From assembly GCA_002393195.1 (NCBI GenBank), contig DGIK01000209.1, forward strand, positions 1 through 34,800: 34,800 nucleotides of DNA, given 5' to 3'. A program made the translations under genes and the position numbers. This DNA is from Bacteroidales bacterium UBA3824. Lineage in GTDB: Bacteria; Bacteroidota; Bacteroidia; Bacteroidales; UBA3824. The notes below the pieces were generated by a model that was not told the origin of the DNA, did no database searches, and saw only the letters and a list, made by a program, of their open reading frames with translations. Of the stretch, positions 1,036 to 31,020 are shown piece by piece; positions within the stretch are counted from its first letter, which is position 1, and every line of letters begins with the position of its first letter.

Positions 1036-3051
1036 ATGAAATACCGTTCAGTACAATTGGGCGTGATAGCAATATCGATAGCGAGCATCAGCATACTGCT
1101 GCTGATGTTGGTCTTTTTTTATCGTGTGCAACAGCGCGAGAACGAGAATATCAAGCGCATCACCAATGAGCAGCGCAATTCCATTGTGGACAATATCTAC
1201 GAGATAAAAACCAATCAGGAGCAGACCCCGGTGTTCGACAATTCCGCGTGGGACGAGTTGCAGTCTTCGATGGCTAACAACGATATGGAGTGGATTGATG
1301 TCAATATTGGCTATATGTCGGAGCATTATTTGGCTGCCACAGTGGCGTTGTTTGACACCAACAACAAGCTTTTTTATGACAATGTGATGCCCAGTGGCAA
1401 AGGAATCGATTTTTATGAAGACCTGAGGCTTCCGGCTATGTTCCGCAATAAGTACAAGAACATATTCTATGCCGTGAAAGAAAACAGGCTGTTTGCCTAT
1501 TATATTTATAAGATAGTGTCGTCCGACGATATTATCACGCGCCAGGAGCAGGAGACGGGCTACCTCATGCTCGTAAAGGAATATACCGACTCATTGGTGA
1601 CGGAGATGTCGCGTATGCTTGGCTCTGTGGAGATGCACATCGCGCTCAATCAAAACACGCTCGACCAGGCAGAACTCGATAATAAGGACAATTATTTTTA
1701 TCGTCTCGTCCTCAACAATCAGTACGGCAACCCCGTGGCATACTTATATTTTACAGCCGAAAACGAGGTGGAGAGCATTTTCCAAAAGTTGTTGAAGGTA
1801 ATGCTCGCTGTATTTGGACTTGTATTGTTGATGCTGCTGTCGCTCATCTTGTACACACAATTGAAAATCGTAAGGCCTCTGCATTTGATAGCCGATGTGT
1901 TTTATACCAACGACGTCGGGAAAATCGACAAACTGATGGGCAGCAAGTCAGAATTTGGCGTGCTGAGCAACAATATCGACAAATTTTTCAAGCAGAAGTA
2001 CGTTGCCGACGAGATGCACAAGGAGATGGTGGAGCGCAATAAGAAACTCACCGACCAGCAAGACACCATCAAAAGGCTTGAGCACCAAGTGGCGGCGCAT
2101 GAGGACACCATCGACACCCTCAATAAGCACATTGCCGACACCAACCGCGAAAGAGAGCTCAAGGAGGCGCAGCTTTCAATCAATGAACAGATGCTCGATG
2201 AGCAGATGGACAATATCTACAGGCTCGGCGAACAGATTGAAAACCTCAAAGTCTCGCTGAAGACGTATGAGAAGCAGCTTGTGGAGGTCAACGGGGTGGT
2301 GAGCGAAAACCAAAACTACGCCGTCCGCCTGAGGAACGTGATGCAGGTGATGGTAACGCCCACAAAGCACGTGTTCCGAGAGTTTTTCCTGTTGGAGAAG
2401 CCCAAAGACCGCATCGGCGGCGACTTCCCCTTTGCGCTCAAAATCGAAAATTGGGTGATTGCCGGCGTCGGCGATTGCAACATGCAGGGCATTTCGGGCG
2501 CGATGCTTTCGTCGATAGACATCTACCTTCTCAACGAAATATTGAGGATGAAGCGTCTGTCTGAATTGAGGTCAGACATCGTGCTCAACGACCTCAACCG
2601 CAAGATACAATCCACAATGGGCGAGGTGCTCGAATCCGACATCATGCGCGACGGTCTCCACATGTCCCTGTTTATGTACGACACGGAGACTCTTAAAGGC
2701 TATTACTCCGGGTCTAAGCGTACAATGGTGTTGATGAGGCGTGGCGAAGTGTCGGAACTCTTTGGCGACAACCTCGCAATTGGCAAGGTGCACGGCAACA
2801 AGACTTTCAATTGTGTGGAAACCCAGCTCGAGCCTGATGATGTCATCTATCTATACTCCGACGGCTGTACCGAGGTGGAGGGCGGCCCATATTGCAAGAA
2901 GTTGCTTGCAATCAATTTCAAGAAGGAGATAGCCCGCAGACAGTCGTTGCAGATTGCCGATCAGAAAAATTCGTTCCGAGAGTTTTACGAAGGTTGGATT
3001 GGCGACCTCACGCAGAGCGACGACATCACGCTCTTGGGATTCAGGGTTTAG
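1036..3051 (+). CDS. Membrane sensor with CHASE4, HAMP, coiled coil and SpoIIE-type PP2C phosphatase
   Basis: A predicted inner-membrane receptor that converts an extracytoplasmic signal into Ser/Thr dephosphorylation. A membrane helix lies at residues 7-29. A periplasmic domain of about 220 residues follows, with a CHASE4-like start (NIYEIK, then VFDNSAWDEL at 66-75). A second helix is at 254-274, a HAMP-like linker at 275-325, and a long coiled coil at 325-425. The C-terminal 230 residues are a SpoIIE/PP2C domain with the metal-ligand aspartates intact: GGDF (D463), GVGD (D480), SDG (D609) and SDD (662-663). The usual CTGHGVPG loop reads CNMQGISG here, a divergent form. The gene converges on the transporter gene with 16 bases between stop codons. 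Target and signal are unknown. It belongs with the three other SpoIIE genes of the window, but it is the only one that senses through CHASE4 rather than TPR repeats. Confidence 0.88.
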   Translation: MKYRSVQLGVIAISIASISILLLMLVFFYRVQQRENENIKRITNEQRNSIVDNIYEIKTNQEQTPVFDNSAWDELQSSMANNDMEWIDVNIGYMSEHYLAATVALFDTNNKLFYDNVMPSGKGIDFYEDLRLPAMFRNKYKNIFYAVKENRLFAYYIYKIVSSDDIITRQEQETGYLMLVKEYTDSLVTEMSRMLGSVEMHIALNQNTLDQAELDNKDNYFYRLVLNNQYGNPVAYLYFTAENEVESIFQKLLKVMLAVFGLVLLMLLSLILYTQLKIVRPLHLIADVFYTNDVGKIDKLMGSKSEFGVLSNNIDKFFKQKYVADEMHKEMVERNKKLTDQQDTIKRLEHQVAAHEDTIDTLNKHIADTNRERELKEAQLSINEQMLDEQMDNIYRLGEQIENLKVSLKTYEKQLVEVNGVVSENQNYAVRLRNVMQVMVTPTKHVFREFFLLEKPKDRIGGDFPFALKIENWVIAGVGDCNMQGISGAMLSSIDIYLLNEILRMKRLSELRSDIVLNDLNRKIQSTMGEVLESDIMRDGLHMSLFMYDTETLKGYYSGSKRTMVLMRRGEVSELFGDNLAIGKVHGNKTFNCVETQLEPDDVIYLYSDGCTEVEGGPYCKKLLAINFKKEIARRQSLQIADQKNSFREFYEGWIGDLTQSDDITLLGFRV

Positions 3052-4299: not shown

Positions 4300-4728
4300 A
4301 TGGCACGTTACATGTTAGATGCAAATATCTTCGCATTTTATGTTGAAGAAAGGGATAGATTGAGTGGAGATGTATTGGCAATTCTGAGTGATTATGGAAA
4401 TTTGCTCTATATGAGTTCAGAATCTGTCAAGGAACTTGTGTGGATACATAGAAACAAAAAGGTACTGGCTAAATCATGGAAAACTCAGATAGACATGATT
4501 AATGCGATAGAAGATGAGTATAGAATTTCGATTGTGCCTGTTGACGCCAATGTTGTAAAAAAAATGTCGCAACTTGAACCCAACACCGCCGAATCCCATA
4601 ACGACCCATCCGACCTCATTATCATTGCCCATTCGATGGTGATGAAGATGCCATTGATTTCGAGTGATAGAAAATTTCCTTTTTACCGTAATCAAGGATT
4701 GGATTTGATAACAAATTTTGTAGAATGA
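4300..4728 (+). CDS. VapC-like PIN-domain ribonuclease (toxin)
   Basis: A 142-residue PIN-domain protein, the usual size for VapC toxins, which are Mg2+-dependent endoribonucleases that cut tRNA or rRNA. The acidic active-site residues are visible: D7 in MLDANIF, E45 in SVKELV, D102/D105 in HNDPSDLIIIAHS, and D123 in SSDRKFPFY. The HNDPxD-IIAHS block is typical of the family. It follows the small putative antitoxin by seven bases. Its stop codon overlaps the start codon of the SDR gene (ATGA at 4725-4728), so the oxidoreductase is probably translated from the same mRNA. The chain looks complete and catalytically competent. Cleavage specificity cannot be judged. Confidence 0.85.
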   Translation: MARYMLDANIFAFYVEERDRLSGDVLAILSDYGNLLYMSSESVKELVWIHRNKKVLAKSWKTQIDMINAIEDEYRISIVPVDANVVKKMSQLEPNTAESHNDPSDLIIIAHSMVMKMPLISSDRKFPFYRNQGLDLITNFVE

Positions 4729-5510
4729 ATTTCACAGACAAAAAAGTATGGATTACAGGCGCGTCGTCGGGGATTGGCGAGGCGTTGACTTATAAATTTT
4801 CTGAACTTGGCGCACACCTTATAATATCGTCGCGCCGCGAATCTGAATTGCAGCGCGTGAAAGCCGCCTGCAAGCATTCCGACAAGGTTACAATCGTTCC
4901 CCTCGACCTCGAAAAATACCACGAAATTGCCTCCATCGCCACACCAATTGTTGAAAAGTTTGGTGCGATTGACATCCTGGTCAATAATGGAGGGGCAAGT
5001 CAGCGTGCGTTAGTTTTGGAGGAGGATTTGACCGTCGTAGAAAAGATGATGAAAATCAATTTTATGGGTGCTGTTGCGCTTACAAAAGTGATTCTGCCGG
5101 GCATGGTGGCTCAAAAATTTGGTCATATCGTTTGTATGAGTAGTCTTGCGGGCAAGTTTGGAATACCGTTGCGCTCAGGATACGCCGCTGCAAAACACGC
5201 TTTGCACGGTTTTTTTGAAACTCTCCGCGCTGAAAATTATGACAACGGCATTCGTGTGCTTATGGTTTGTCCGGGCTACATTAATACTAATGTCGCCATC
5301 AATGCCCTTGATGCAAACGCCAACAAGCGCAACCAAAATGACCCGGGACAAGAGAAGGGACTTGCCCCGTCCGTACTCGCCGATAAGATAATCAAGGGCA
5401 TAGAGAAAGAGAAACTCGAAATCACTGCCGGCGGCGGCGAAACCAATGGAATTTGGGTAAGTCGCTTTTTCCCAAGGCTTTTCGCAAAGATAATCAGAAA
5501 AAAGAAGTAA
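4725..5510 (+). CDS. Short-chain dehydrogenase/reductase (classical SDR)
   Basis: A 261-residue NAD(P)-dependent oxidoreductase of the classical SDR family. The Rossmann cofactor loop is TGASSGIG (11-18). The SSRR at 35-38 after strand 2 suggests NADP(H) preference. NNGG (87-90) replaces the more common NNAG. The catalytic set is S139/S140, Y153 and K157 (YAAAK). After the PGY motif comes a variable substrate lid. A C-terminal hydrophobic and basic tail (FFPRLFAKIIRKKK) may touch the membrane. This resembles DHRS7-like SDRs common in Bacteroidota. The substrate is unknown. The start overlaps the PIN toxin stop by ATGA, so translation is probably coupled. The repeat array begins three bases after its stop codon. 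Confidence 0.9.
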   Translation: MNFTDKKVWITGASSGIGEALTYKFSELGAHLIISSRRESELQRVKAACKHSDKVTIVPLDLEKYHEIASIATPIVEKFGAIDILVNNGGASQRALVLEEDLTVVEKMMKINFMGAVALTKVILPGMVAQKFGHIVCMSSLAGKFGIPLRSGYAAAKHALHGFFETLRAENYDNGIRVLMVCPGYINTNVAINALDANANKRNQNDPGQEKGLAPSVLADKIIKGIEKEKLEITAGGGETNGIWVSRFFPRLFAKIIRKKK

Positions 5511-5512
5511 TG

Positions 5513-5743
5513 AAATTGCACTTTTGAAAGTACAATTTTGAGTTGAAATTGACTTTTCCAAAGTACAATTTTATGTAGAATTTGACTTTTTAAAAGTGCA
5601 ATTTTGGGTTTAAATTGACTTTTCTAAAGTGCAATTTTGTGTTTAAATTGACTTTTACAAAGTACAATTTTGGGTTTAAATTGACTTTTCTAAAGTGCAA
5701 TTTTTAATGATTATTAACTTTTTGAAAAGGCAATTTATGCATA
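5513..5743. repeat. 33-bp palindromic tandem repeat array upstream of the AAA_14 ATPase
   Basis: Six units in exact 33-base register start at 5513, 5546, 5579, 5612, 5645 and 5678. A decayed seventh, also in register, lies at 5711-5743. Each unit has a left arm AAATTG-ACTTTT, a two-base centre, a right arm AAAGT[A/G]CAATTTT and a six-base linker (often GGGTTT or GTGTTT). The arms pair as a hairpin or DNA palindrome with a single unpaired base (the A/G) in the right arm. That base is A in units 1, 2 and 5 and G in units 3, 4 and 6. Units 4 and 6 share the same 27-base core. Unit 1 has an extra C in its left arm opposite the A, and unit 3 has one arm mismatch. There are no unique spacers, so it is not CRISPR. 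It fits an operator or iteron-like binding array, or a chain of RNA hairpins. Confidence 0.93.
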
Positions 5744-5749
5744 TATTTG
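5721..5749 (+). promoter_or_regulatory. Promoter of the AAA_14 ATPase, inside the last repeat
   Basis: TTTG at 5721-5724, 17 bases, then TATATTTG at 5742-5749, a full -7 consensus. The ATG lies 28 bases after the -7 box, at 5777. The -33 element falls in the centre of the decayed seventh repeat, so any protein bound to the array would lie next to or on the polymerase. Confidence 0.6.
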
Positions 5750-5776: not shown

Positions 5777-6982
5777 ATGCAACAGTCTGATATAATGCCT
5801 CTTGTAAATGTTTACCGCAGAAAGGTAGATGATGTCAATATGGATTTCAAGCGTTACTTATTCGACGAAATCGATTGGGAAGACCGTCTTATCGGCATCA
5901 TGGGCGCAAGAGGCGTCGGAAAAACAACCTTGATTCTGCAATACATCAAGGAAAAAGTCAAAGACAAAAGCAAGGCTCTATGGGTCTCGCTAGACAATCT
6001 GTGGTTCAAGACCAACAGCCTGCTCGACCTTGTGGAATACCTTTACACGCAGGGCGTCACTCATTTGTTTTTTGACGAGGTACACAAGTTTCCGGACTGG
6101 GCGTTGTACTTAAAAAACTTTTACGACAACTATCCCGACCTCAAGATAGTCTATACGGGTTCGTCGATGCTCAAGATAGACAATTCGAAAGCCGACCTTT
6201 CGCGCCGGCAGATAATCTACACCCTCGGCAACCTGTCGTTCAGGGAATACCTTGAGTTCAACAAGATACTGAAATTAGACGCAGTATCGCTTCCCGAACT
6301 GCTTAAAAGACATGTGGACATAGCATCAGAGATCGTCCCTAAAATAAAGGTGTTGAAATATTTTGGCGACTATCTCCAAAGAGGATGCTACCCATTTTCG
6401 CGCGAGGTAAGACGCGGGTACGACGCACGGCTCAGCACCGTCGTGCAGCTCGTAATGGAAAGCGACATGCCGGCTTCAAACGACATATCGTACCAGACGG
6501 TGGAAAAAACCAAAAAACTGCTGATGCTCATAGTGAGCAACGTGCCATTTGAAGCCAACATCTCCAAGCTTGCCGAAGCGATAAGCTCCACCCGCGACAG
6601 CTGCCTCAAGATGCTCTACACGCTCGACAAGGGCAATATCATCTCCATACTCAACAAGGACATGAAAAATTACAAGCACCTGGTCGCGCCAAGCAAGGTA
6701 TATCTCTACAACACCAACCTGATGTATGCCCTCTCGGGAAAGATAGATACCGGCAACATCCGCGAGACATTCTTCCTAAACCAGATGCAGTTGTTGTTTG
6801 ATGTGCGATACCCCAAGCAGGGAGACTTCCTTGTGGACAACAAATACCTCTTTGAGGTAGGCGGACCAAACAAGACCTACGACCAGATAAAGAACATCCC
6901 TCAGAGCTATCTCGCCGTCGATGGCATAGAATATGGCTTCGGCAACAGGATTCCGCTGTGGATGTTTGGAATTTTGTATTGA
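5777..6982 (+). CDS. AAA_14/DUF4143 family ATPase
   Basis: A 401-residue P-loop ATPase of the AAA_14 plus DUF4143 type. Walker A is GARGVGKTT (43-51) and Walker B is HLFFDEVHK (96-104). A sensor-like YTGSS follows at 126-130, then the family-typical LSRRQIIYTLGNLSFREYLE region (141-160). Residues about 235-300 look like a winged helix. The C-terminal DUF4143 part ends in a degenerate restriction-endonuclease-like core: D350 in GDF, E360 in FEVGG, and K366, instead of the usual E-V-K. The role of this family is unknown in most cases; nucleic-acid-linked or defence roles have been suspected. It stands alone behind the 33-bp repeat array, and a new promoter for glycosyltransferases begins just after its stop. 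An internal ATG at codon 7 is an alternative start. Confidence 0.88.
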   Translation: MQQSDIMPLVNVYRRKVDDVNMDFKRYLFDEIDWEDRLIGIMGARGVGKTTLILQYIKEKVKDKSKALWVSLDNLWFKTNSLLDLVEYLYTQGVTHLFFDEVHKFPDWALYLKNFYDNYPDLKIVYTGSSMLKIDNSKADLSRRQIIYTLGNLSFREYLEFNKILKLDAVSLPELLKRHVDIASEIVPKIKVLKYFGDYLQRGCYPFSREVRRGYDARLSTVVQLVMESDMPASNDISYQTVEKTKKLLMLIVSNVPFEANISKLAEAISSTRDSCLKMLYTLDKGNIISILNKDMKNYKHLVAPSKVYLYNTNLMYALSGKIDTGNIRETFFLNQMQLLFDVRYPKQGDFLVDNKYLFEVGGPNKTYDQIKNIPQSYLAVDGIEYGFGNRIPLWMFGILY

Positions 6983-7045: not shown

Positions 7046-8194
7046 ATGAAGGATTTGACCATAACGTTTGATGGTAAGCGCGCCTCAAACAACAGAACGG
7101 GGCTCGGAAATTATAGCCGACATATCATTGGATTGTTGGCTAAGTTTTTTCCGAGCAATCGTTATGTGATTTTCTTGACAAAACCAAACAAAAATGAGCA
7201 GTTGAGGGAGATTCTGGAACAAAATCCAAAAATAGAAACCGTTTTGCCGAAAAAAGGGTTGTGGAAAAAGTTTTCGTCATTGTGGAGAGTTTTTGAAATT
7301 AGGAATGAAATTGCGGAGTACGAAAATATTATATATCACGGACTTAGCAATGAATTGCCGTTAACTATAAAAAAGACTAATGCTAAGAGCGTGGTAACGA
7401 TTCACGACCTGATTTTCCTGAAATTTCCGAAATACTACAAGTTTTTTGACCGCAAAATTTACGCCTACAAATTTCGTAAGGCGTGCGAAAATGCCGACAA
7501 AATTATTGCTGTAAGCGAATGTACAAAAAGGGATGTTGTCGATATTTTCAACATAAATCCCGACAAAATCAAGGTGATTTATCAGGGGTGCGACAAGGTT
7601 TTCAAGACCGATGTCCCTGATGATGTATTGCGTGATGTAAGGCAAAAATATAATCTTCCCGACCGATTTTTGCTTAATGTTGGCAGCATCGAGGAGCGCA
7701 AAAATGCACTTTTGATTGTCAAGGCATTGCCACTTTTGAAAGAAAAAATGCCGCTTGTAATTGTCGGCAAGAGAACTAAATACACTTCGGAAATCGAAAA
7801 AGCAGCCGAAAATTTGGGTGTCAGCAATTTGTTGCATATTTTGGACAAAGTGCCTTTTGAAGACCTTGCGCCGATTTATCATTTGTGCGATGTTTTCATC
7901 TATCCGTCGCGGTATGAGGGGTTTGGTATTCCGATAATTGAGGCCATCTGCTGCGGTGTGCCTGTGATTGCGGCTACGGGATCTTGTCTTGAAGAGGCGG
8001 GCGGACCGGATTGCATTTATGTAGATCCTGATGATGAAGATGCATTGTCGGCAGCAATAGAAAAATTTTCCACTGACACTGCCTTCCGCCAGAATTCAAT
8101 CGAAAATAGTAAAAAATATGTGGAAAAATTTTCGGAAGAAATTCAGGCTAAACAATTAATGGAATGTTATAAAGAAATTTGTGATGAAAGATAA
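7046..8194 (+). CDS. Glycosyltransferase family 4 (GT-B fold)
   Basis: A 382-residue retaining glycosyltransferase that moves a sugar from a nucleotide-sugar donor, probably at the cytoplasmic face during surface-glycan assembly. The N-terminal half has the acceptor domain start DGKRASNNRTGLGNYSRH (a GxGxY pattern typical of mannosyl- or rhamnosyl-like GT4 enzymes) and VTIHDLIFLKFPKYY. The C-terminal donor domain shows AVSECTKRDVV, LNVGSIEERKN, and the E-x7-E motif in RYEGFGIPIIEA. Length is normal for the family. Its last 11 bases overlap the next gene's ATG (8184), showing translational coupling. Donor and acceptor are not predictable from sequence. Confidence 0.92.
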   Translation: MKDLTITFDGKRASNNRTGLGNYSRHIIGLLAKFFPSNRYVIFLTKPNKNEQLREILEQNPKIETVLPKKGLWKKFSSLWRVFEIRNEIAEYENIIYHGLSNELPLTIKKTNAKSVVTIHDLIFLKFPKYYKFFDRKIYAYKFRKACENADKIIAVSECTKRDVVDIFNINPDKIKVIYQGCDKVFKTDVPDDVLRDVRQKYNLPDRFLLNVGSIEERKNALLIVKALPLLKEKMPLVIVGKRTKYTSEIEKAAENLGVSNLLHILDKVPFEDLAPIYHLCDVFIYPSRYEGFGIPIIEAICCGVPVIAATGSCLEEAGGPDCIYVDPDDEDALSAAIEKFSTDTAFRQNSIENSKKYVEKFSEEIQAKQLMECYKEICDER

Positions 8195-8942
8195 AATATC
8201 AGTAGTAATCAACACCTACAACGCCGAAAGGCATTTGGAGAAAGTATTGCAAGCGGCAAAGAATTTCGACGAAATTGTGGTCTGCGATATGGAAAGCACC
8301 GACCACACAGTTGAAATCGCCCAACGGTATGGTTGTAAGGTTGTTACGTTTCCCAAGAAAGATTATGTTAGCGCGGAGCCTGCACGCAATTTTGCTATTC
8401 AATCGGCTTCGTCATATTGGGTTTTGGTGGTGGATGCAGATGAACTTATCACTGAGGATTTGCGCAAATATCTGTATGACAGGATAAAAGATGAAAACTG
8501 TCCGGCAGGTTTGTACATTCCACGCAAAAATTATGTAATGAACAAGTTTATCAAACAGACCTATCCCGACCCGCAACTGAGGTTTTTTAAGCGTGAAGGC
8601 TCCAATTGGCCGCCATACGTCCACACTTTTCCCTCGGTGGACGGCGCGACCGAAAAAATACCTTTTCAGCGTATGGAACTCGCCCTCATTCATATCAGCG
8701 ATACGGTGTATGATCAATTATACAAAATGAATCAATACACTGAAAACGAAGTAGTTAAGAAACAGGGCGACAAAGTGGGAATGTTCAAGATTTTCATAAA
8801 ATGCACCCACAGGTTCATCAAGAGTTTCATATTAAAAGGTGGCTTCAGGTATGGCATCCGTGGTCTTGTGTACGCTATCAACGCCGCTAATTACAAGTTT
8901 TACACGATGGTGAAAATTTGGGAGCGGCAGAATACGGTGTAA
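8184..8942 (+). CDS. Glycosyltransferase family 2, LPS-core type
   Basis: A 252-residue GT-A fold glycosyltransferase resembling the WaaE/KdtX group that adds glucose or similar sugars to LPS core. The nucleotide-binding start is SVVINTYNAERHLEKVL. CDMESTDHTVEIA follows, and the metal-binding DxD is VVDADE. The block GLYIPRKNYVMNKF with PDPQLRFFKR is typical of this subgroup. The reading frame also allows a GTG at 8181, but ATG at 8184 is preferred; it overlaps the end of the GT4 gene. No membrane segment is seen. A 69-base gap without an obvious promoter separates it from the next gene. Confidence 0.88.
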   Translation: MKDKISVVINTYNAERHLEKVLQAAKNFDEIVVCDMESTDHTVEIAQRYGCKVVTFPKKDYVSAEPARNFAIQSASSYWVLVVDADELITEDLRKYLYDRIKDENCPAGLYIPRKNYVMNKFIKQTYPDPQLRFFKREGSNWPPYVHTFPSVDGATEKIPFQRMELALIHISDTVYDQLYKMNQYTENEVVKKQGDKVGMFKIFIKCTHRFIKSFILKGGFRYGIRGLVYAINAANYKFYTMVKIWERQNTV

Positions 8943-30200: not shown

Positions 30201-30266
30201 CGAATTATAACGAATTAAAACGAATTTCTTTTTAATAATTCGTTTTAATTCTTTTAAATTCGTTTC
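30201..30266. repeat. CGAATT direct and inverted repeats between recR and the membrane gene
   Basis: CGAATT occurs three times at 30201, 30211 and 30221 (ten-base period). On the other side ATTCG recurs, including AATTCGTTTTAATT at 30237-30250. That forms a perfect 14-bp inverted repeat with AATTAAAACGAATT (30213-30226), separated by ten bases. It could act as a terminator for the membrane-protein gene, although the T-run is only partial, or as a protein-binding site. Confidence 0.7.
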
Positions 30267-31020
30267 AATTTTTGTTTAAAAAAGAAGCCGTCGTAGGCGG
30301 CGTTGATAATGTTATCGTTGCGGATTTGTAGAAGATGAACATCGAGGTTGCTATCAGGATGTGCGAAATGTCGTTGTGATTGAACCACGGCGAGAATTGG
30401 AATTTTGTTGCCATCACGGGTCCTGAAAAAAGCATCACGCCCGCGCCAATGAGCAACAATTTTTGTTCTGCTCCAAATTGGTGTTTCTTTACCATCAATT
30501 GCAACGGCACGAGCACTGCGTATAGTGTAAACGCAATGTGTGCGGCGGCGACGTTGTAGTCAACATAAATAATCATCAATATCAATACCAAAATCGACTC
30601 TGCCGTGATGACTGCAAGCCAACGTTTGCGCGAAATGTCGGGCGCAAGGTCGGAGGCGCGGTCAACGAGCGAGAGTTCAAAGAGGGACGCGGATGTTATG
30701 TTGAAAAGCCAATTGGGCATATTGTGGATGTGGTAGGCGAATTTATCAGACCAATCGAGGAGCGCGATTTGAGGCTTGGTGAGTAGAGGCTCCACAAAAT
30801 AATATGCGAATGCGTGGCTCATCAACCCTGCAAACAATGTGCAAAGTCCCATCGTCAGGAAAAAATGCGGATAATGCGGCATATATCCGCCGTTTGCCTT
30901 TGATGTGCGGCGGAGTTTGATGTATGCGGAGATGCACACTGCTGTTATGATGAAGTCGGTGAGGGCAGTCATTGGTTCCAACACTGACACGCCGCCCAAA
31001 AGCCATTCTGTTCTTTCCAT
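30265..31020 (-). CDS. Uncharacterised multi-pass (about seven-helix) membrane protein
   Basis: A 251-residue integral membrane protein of unknown function. Roughly seven hydrophobic segments are visible, with helices beginning near residues 13, 50, 110, 133, 157, 188 and 217. Polar residues within or next to helices include [31 protein letters not shown] and [15 protein letters not shown]. Several membrane-located histidines plus Ser and Asp might mark a hydrolase-like or metal-binding membrane protein (for example ceramidase-like/CREST), but this is a weak guess. The start ATG has a consensus promoter at 31044-31075. Nothing connects its function with recR or the adjacent signalling gene. 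Confidence 0.7.

Follow-up and report, generated by a model that had tools for sequence, protein, structure and literature searches.

Tandem palindromic repeats upstream of an AAA_14 ATPase gene as a candidate private operator array

The ATPase gene and its upstream array

The window analysed here is a stretch of 34,800 nucleotides from the genome of Bacteroidales bacterium UBA3824 (contig DGIK01000209.1). It contains a gene for an AAA_14 ATPase of 401 aa (5777-6982, forward strand), whose AAA domain spans residues 37-159, and a tandem repeat array upstream of this gene. The cassette of array and ATPase gene is flanked by genes that lie outside it, namely an SDR dehydrogenase gene (4725-5510, forward strand), whose stop codon lies 2 bp before the array, and a downstream glycosyltransferase gene (7046-8194, forward strand), which shares its last 14 bp with the next gene (8181-8942). 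A PIN-domain protein (E 6.8e-12) is encoded at 4300-4728, and the 3' end of its gene overlaps the start of the dehydrogenase gene by 4 bp.

AAA_14 is the sole Pfam match of the whole protein (E 6.7e-28), and this search gave neither a Rep initiator domain nor a PD-(D/E)XK match. An initial reading made from the letters of the window (the sequence-only reading) had named the protein an AAA_14/DUF4143 ATPase. The first part of that name stands and the second does not, as DUF4143 is absent from the whole-protein list at E 0.001 and scores 21.2 bits in a fragment, under the Pfam curated cut-off of 28.1.

A winged helix is predicted at residues 256-300 (6542-6676, forward strand), a segment that includes residues 266 (6572-6574) and 274 (6596-6598). 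In the structure model of the protein (mean pLDDT 79.6) residue 266 lies within a helix at 262-268, and residue 274 opens a helix at 273-285 that is followed by a strand at 289-292; the order of these predicted elements is that of a winged helix. A model of the winged-helix fragment by itself was poor (pLDDT 65); its structure matches, many of the 50 listed being winged-helix regulators, were weak at E 0.65 or worse, and a sequence search gave E values of 0.12 or worse. The whole-protein model resembles AAA+ ATPases (Apaf-1, DnaA, ORC, clamp loaders) with low TM-scores, and a second structural comparison covered residues 1-144 only.

The array consists of six in-phase 33-bp units (5513-5710, forward strand), each made of a 27-bp near-palindrome and a 6-bp linker, which on direct comparison start at 5513, 5546, 5579, 5612, 5645 and 5678. 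They are followed by a decayed seventh unit (core 5711-5737, forward strand), which shares no more than 18-21 of 33 positions with any of the other six. TRF recovers the array at 5511-5704 with a period of 33, 5.9 copies and a score of 246, so that both approaches bear out the six units and decayed seventh of the sequence-only reading. Twelve of the 33 columns vary among the six units and the remaining 21 are invariant. Variable columns are found in the loop (13, 14), at an A/G bulge (20) and in the linker (28, 29, 30, 32, 33), and also at column 3, in unit 3 alone, and at columns 7, 8 and 9, which reflect an inserted C in unit 1; the variation is therefore placed as first described, mostly in bulge, loop and linker save for the exceptions in units 3 and 1.

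The seventh unit overlies the predicted -33 region, with TTTG at 5721-5724. Its core ends 4 bp before a -7-like box, TATATTTG (5742-5749, forward strand), which is separated by 27 bp from the ATG of the ATPase gene. We take TATATTTG, in general form TAnnTTTG, to be the -7-like box that accompanies the -33 element in the Bacteroidota promoter consensus.

Arrays at other ATPase genes

The genome to which the window belongs (4.18 Mb in 232 contigs, 96.7% complete, 6.4% contamination) yielded 59 AAA_14 matches, and the 50 above the cut-off were examined. TRF detected an array within 400 bp upstream of 29 of these 50 AAA_14-type genes, compared with 1 of 69 other genes located in the window or in 20 of the examined stretches; in the sole positive control the array lies inside the preceding open reading frame. 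Genes that share the upstream region of an ATPase gene had an array in 2 of 11 cases, and TRF found none in the 300 bp that follow each of the 50 ATPase genes. In a lag scan of the same loci, 32 of the 50 exceeded dinucleotide shuffles at z≥4, with lags of 32 or 33 in 21 and of 51-54 in 11.

Two length classes are present among these genes. The short class (about 380-455 aa) mostly has the 33-bp kind of array, and its three tested members (L006, L027 and L028) encode AAA_14 with DUF4143, while the long class (about 470-490 aa) has long palindromes, and both members tested (L029 and L032) belong to PF01637. An upstream palindrome score of at least 10, assessed against shuffles rather than control genes and with the 469-aa L053 placed in the short class, was obtained for 17 of 23 long-class and 12 of 27 short-class genes. 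Downstream of five long-class genes (L032, L033, L036, L045 and L048) the arm of the upstream palindrome recurs with 13 or more of its 14 bases. By eye, the arrays of DUF4143-type ATPases (L189-L200, L020-L027) seem to combine a variable part with a shared partial motif resembling AAAA(G/A)TGTA.

Unit sequences vary between the ATPase genes of this genome, and three arrays (those of the window, L028 and L031) were searched against it. The L031 array matched its own locus only. The whole window array matched itself, on both strands, and one 35-bp stretch (C85:16859-16893) that directly precedes another AAA_14 gene. A relative of the L028 array, made of two units with a lag of 32, lies at C7:28862-28932 (L355) between a ketoacyl synthase gene and a TonB-receptor-type gene, with no adjoining ATPase gene; this pair may be left over from a lost cassette or may be a distant operator. 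Arrays standing free of an ATPase, which the sequence-only reading regarded as evidence against a pairing, are represented by this two-unit pair, the other array searches having given no such case. Dispersed REP-like repeats were considered and rejected, as the three arrays searched gave only their own locus or a single other place.

Our scan of named genomes recovered at least 498 relatives, and the best 80 (43-76% identical) were kept. On these 80 loci TRF alone reported 27 arrays, compared with 14 in 294 controls; since TRF is weak for two-copy arrays, we used a lag scan, which takes the best self-match at lags of 20-60 within 220 bp upstream. The best lag was 32 or 33 at 73 of these best 80 of at least 498 relatives, compared with 27 of 303 other genes from the same loci, and z≥4 was reached at 53 of the best 80. 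Among the strong outliers in the controls, those with a lag of 33 (L127, L109) are themselves AAA_14 genes and one with a lag of 55 (L175) is a PF01637 ATPase, the remainder being non-ATPases. In two further, more distant sets the lag was 32 or 33 at 45 of 82 loci (counted without the duplicates L201, L202 and L231) and 42 of 59 loci. Exact duplicate proteins and loci with less than 120 or 150 bp of upstream sequence were also left out. Upstream repeats of 32-33 bp, which the sequence-only reading led one to expect at related ATPases, are thus present at most of the named-genome loci, yet ATPases without this lag also occur (7 of 80, 37 of 82 and 17 of 59).

The arrangement extends to plasmids. 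A relative of the DUF4143-type L027 was found in 59 plasmid records, and in 8 of the 12 that were fetched the best lag was 32 or 33 with z>6 (Collinsella, one Fusobacterium, Vibrio, Agathobacter, Acinetobacter, Prevotella and two Segatella). Vescimonas has a lag of 42 (z 11), and Ruminococcus, Bacteroides and a second Fusobacterium have none. Taken together, plasmid and genome loci place the arrangement in Bacteroidota, Bacillota, Actinomycetota, Fusobacteriota and Pseudomonadota. A phage origin was rejected as a rule, given one match among 50,697 phage records and one locus on a viral contig.

Promoter phase and covariation with the predicted winged helix

The promoter phase seen in the window recurs in its subfamily, for which counts were made after leaving out L063 (wrong start) and L109 and L122 (the same loci as L058 and L057). 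TAnnTTTG is present in the last 110 bp at 87 of 105 loci, and in 61 of these 87, compared with about 24 expected by chance, the box lies 0-8 bp past the array end, modulo the period. Since the box is phased to the array, the last unit covers the expected -33 region. Placed upstream of the -7-like box, the array is outside the leader of that promoter, which favours a DNA site.

A usable consensus unit was available for 71 of the 105 loci, and at these loci unit similarity follows protein identity (Mantel r 0.58; 0 of 2000 permutations), units being near background at less than 55% protein identity, slightly similar at 55-60% and clearly so above 60%. Single units are weakly palindromic compared with shuffles (z≥2 in 15 of 71). 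Because linked inheritance alone could explain the Mantel result, we examined covariation between protein residues and half-site bases within the window's subfamily, as distinct from the DUF4143 and PF01637 classes, using alignment columns filled in at least 90%. Units with a lag score below 14 were excluded from the discovery set. The hold-out set, whose units were aligned using the discovery-set motif, was confined to units that scored at least 9 and had no more than 12 undetermined positions.

In the discovery set (71 loci) the highest of 4752 pairs is residue 274 with half-site position 6, and the next is residue 266 with half-site position 8. In the hold-out set (88 loci, none used in discovery) they rank sixth and first, respectively, and high scorers are enriched in residues 256-300 (8/45 versus 9/351, p 1.7e-4). 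When the occupancy filter is removed from the hold-out analysis, gappy N-terminal columns come out on top and the winged-helix enrichment is not significant (p 0.14). Residues that score beyond the winged helix are Y111, M7 and A139.

The pairings can be read from the hold-out half-sites, which number two per locus and, like the loci, are mutually non-independent. At position 6, Asn274 occurs with T in 52 of 57 half-sites, Gln274 with T in 7 of 9, Thr274 with T in 6 of 6 and Asp274 with C in 18 of 25, and Glu274 is mixed (T 9, C 4, A 4). At position 8 of the same non-independent half-sites, Trp266 occurs with T (7/7), Tyr266 with A (16/21), Ser266 with G (49/73) and Ala266 with G (24/39), and Cys266 with T in 5 and C in 6. 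Asp contacting cytosine is familiar from textbooks, as is Asn or Gln contacting adenine, the base opposite T. Tree-aware contrasts gave 10 concordant and 0 opposite of 14 for Asp274 with C6 (p 0.002), and 8 concordant and 2 opposite of 21 for Asn/Gln274 with T6 (p 0.11); for residue 266 the contrasts are too few, with 4 to 8 per class, 1 to 3 of them concordant and none opposite. At position 6 the two halves of the window's own unit are unlike, the left carrying C and the right A, because its half-sites differ by one base.

We propose, at a probability of about 0.78, that the array is a private operator array of the downstream ATPase, which would regulate itself. In the window's subfamily each unit would be a palindrome of about 24-27 bp that is read by the winged helix of the ATPase, probably as a dimer, and the 33-bp period (about three helical turns) would place bound ATPases on one face of the DNA. 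With the last unit on the promoter, the ATPase would coat its own promoter and most likely repress it. Each lineage would have changed residues of its winged helix along with its repeat, such that the many paralogs within a genome would each leave the arrays of the others unbound. Counting against this reading are the loci lacking a lag of 32 or 33, the ATPase-free pair at L355, the weak palindromes of single units, the high palindrome scores in no more than 12 of 27 short-class genes, the scoring residues beyond the winged helix and the presence of C6 in just one half of the window unit.

Cassette behaviour, alternative explanations and defence candidates

The surroundings of the window ATPase were compared with those in other genomes. 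In G011 the same glycosyltransferase (90%) is preceded, at the same site, by the end of the ATPase (86% identity in the final 78 residues). G006, which is 72% complete, has the end of the dehydrogenase (97%) about 100 bp from the glycosyltransferase (75%), and this gap, as read in the sequence, contains neither a unit nor the ATPase. In G017 (dehydrogenase 92%; L351:255-335) one array-like unit lies directly past the dehydrogenase stop, followed by the last dozen ATPase codons, read by eye, and then by other genes; read in this way, the site would be a remnant of cassette loss. G016 carries array and ATPase (76%) between a pair of glycosyltransferase genes whose window counterparts overlap, and in G001 the ATPase (75%) lies near the dehydrogenase with another gene intervening. 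The empty site, the second site and the scar indicate that array and gene come, move and go together, as would be expected if both form a single cassette in inheritance, movement and loss. The linked gain and loss anticipated by the sequence-only reading is thereby seen in presence, relocation and loss, and its functional pairing of array and ATPase is supported by this linkage and by the repeats upstream in related loci. Its further suggestion that the module may be mobile finds partial support.

These observations bear on a different explanation, in which the array is a recombination or homing site, the ATPase mobilises the cassette through a nuclease-like end and promoter control is secondary. 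We consider this improbable: the empty site in G006 has no unit, no TRF array follows any of the 50 ATPase genes within 300 bp and promoter phase is kept across loci. In its favour are the empty site, the second insertion site, the scar and the palindromes found on both sides in the five long-class loci. Homing and operator function are compatible with each other. Slightly less probable again is that the array serves as operator for another, trans-acting regulator of which the ATPase is merely a target gene. The link between ATPase and array does depend on covariation, in which some residues outside the winged helix also take part; against this, paralog arrays differ within a genome and as many separate regulators would be needed, neighbour genes vary between loci, and the top covarying residues, hold-out included, lie in the ATPase's own winged helix. 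A role for the units at the transcript level, as hairpins of an attenuator or small RNA, is very improbable, for although the array stretch as RNA is better folded than 200 of 200 dinucleotide shuffles (z -5.5, a result that is unspecific and expected of any tandem palindrome) and the co-directional upstream gene makes read-through possible, the array lies upstream of, and in phase with, the -7-like box, nothing in the window reaches an Rfam gathering score, no terminator-like site was found and variation follows the DNA-binding domain. Between the DNA sites and RNA hairpins that were initially offered as alternatives, the position of the array upstream of the box and the winged-helix covariation favour a DNA site.

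As a private operator array, the repeats would have two known counterparts. Iterons and Rep initiators act in plasmid replication, and toxin-antitoxin modules have autoregulated operators. The likeness to iterons would lie in autoregulation and in tandem repeats that are spaced at whole helical turns and adjoin the gene of a putative binder; in contrast to them, the arrays described here are chromosomal, form many different pairs per genome and accompany a protein in which Pfam finds no Rep domain. Toxin-antitoxin operators would be similar as self-specific operators at their own promoter, with paralogs separated by co-evolved specificity, whereas here ATPase and predicted DNA-binding domain reside in one protein and the window neighbours are an SDR dehydrogenase and a glycosyltransferase.

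In PADLOC, where no cut-off is given for them, seven PDC-S01 models match the window ATPase at E≤0.01 (best 8.2e-26, residues 35-329), and the long-class L032 matches PDC-S27 at E 9e-201. From this database match alone the family may be labelled defensive. PDC-S01 and PDC-S27 are described as ATPases fused to PD-(D/E)XK members, PDC-S01 is reported to rank fourth in frequency among the (candidate) defences of prokaryotes, and validation of most PDCs is pending (PMC12988326); a survey of rumen genomes reports PDC-S01 as their most frequent individual locus (PMC13356809). The window ATPase and L032 resemble these candidates in matching their models and in being single-gene ATPases. They differ in their upstream repeat arrays, unmentioned in the accessible text of PMC12988326, and the window protein further differs from PDC-S01 in that the best match spans only residues 35-329 and DUF4143 falls below the Pfam cut-off. 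No description of arrays at these ATPase genes was found in the literature within reach, which excludes many subscription papers and bioRxiv-only preprints.

A tentative extension, which we think rather unlikely, is that PDC-S01 and PDC-S27, among the most abundant single-gene defence candidates, are self-contained switches. The ATPase would be silenced in register, at three or about five helical turns, on its own array, and infection would free it by stripping or titrating it. If so, the array would act as the sensor, and each unit would be marked by the array sequence as by a private identity tag; the residues of the winged helix would represent a readable protein-DNA code over thousands of natural pairs. 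Should the ATPases bind private promoter arrays, every locus brings its own DNA ligand, and binding, regulation and activation are therefore directly testable; the family would then constitute a large natural set of winged-helix/operator pairs from which a recognition code could be learned.

Two further features were seen elsewhere in the window. At 30201-30270 two runs of 10-bp repeats, CGAATTAAAA and TAATTCGTTT, adjoin each other and look like mutual reverse complements, and the region 1036-3051 encodes a protein of 671 aa in which a SpoIIE domain exceeds its cut-off and a CHASE4 match falls short of its own.
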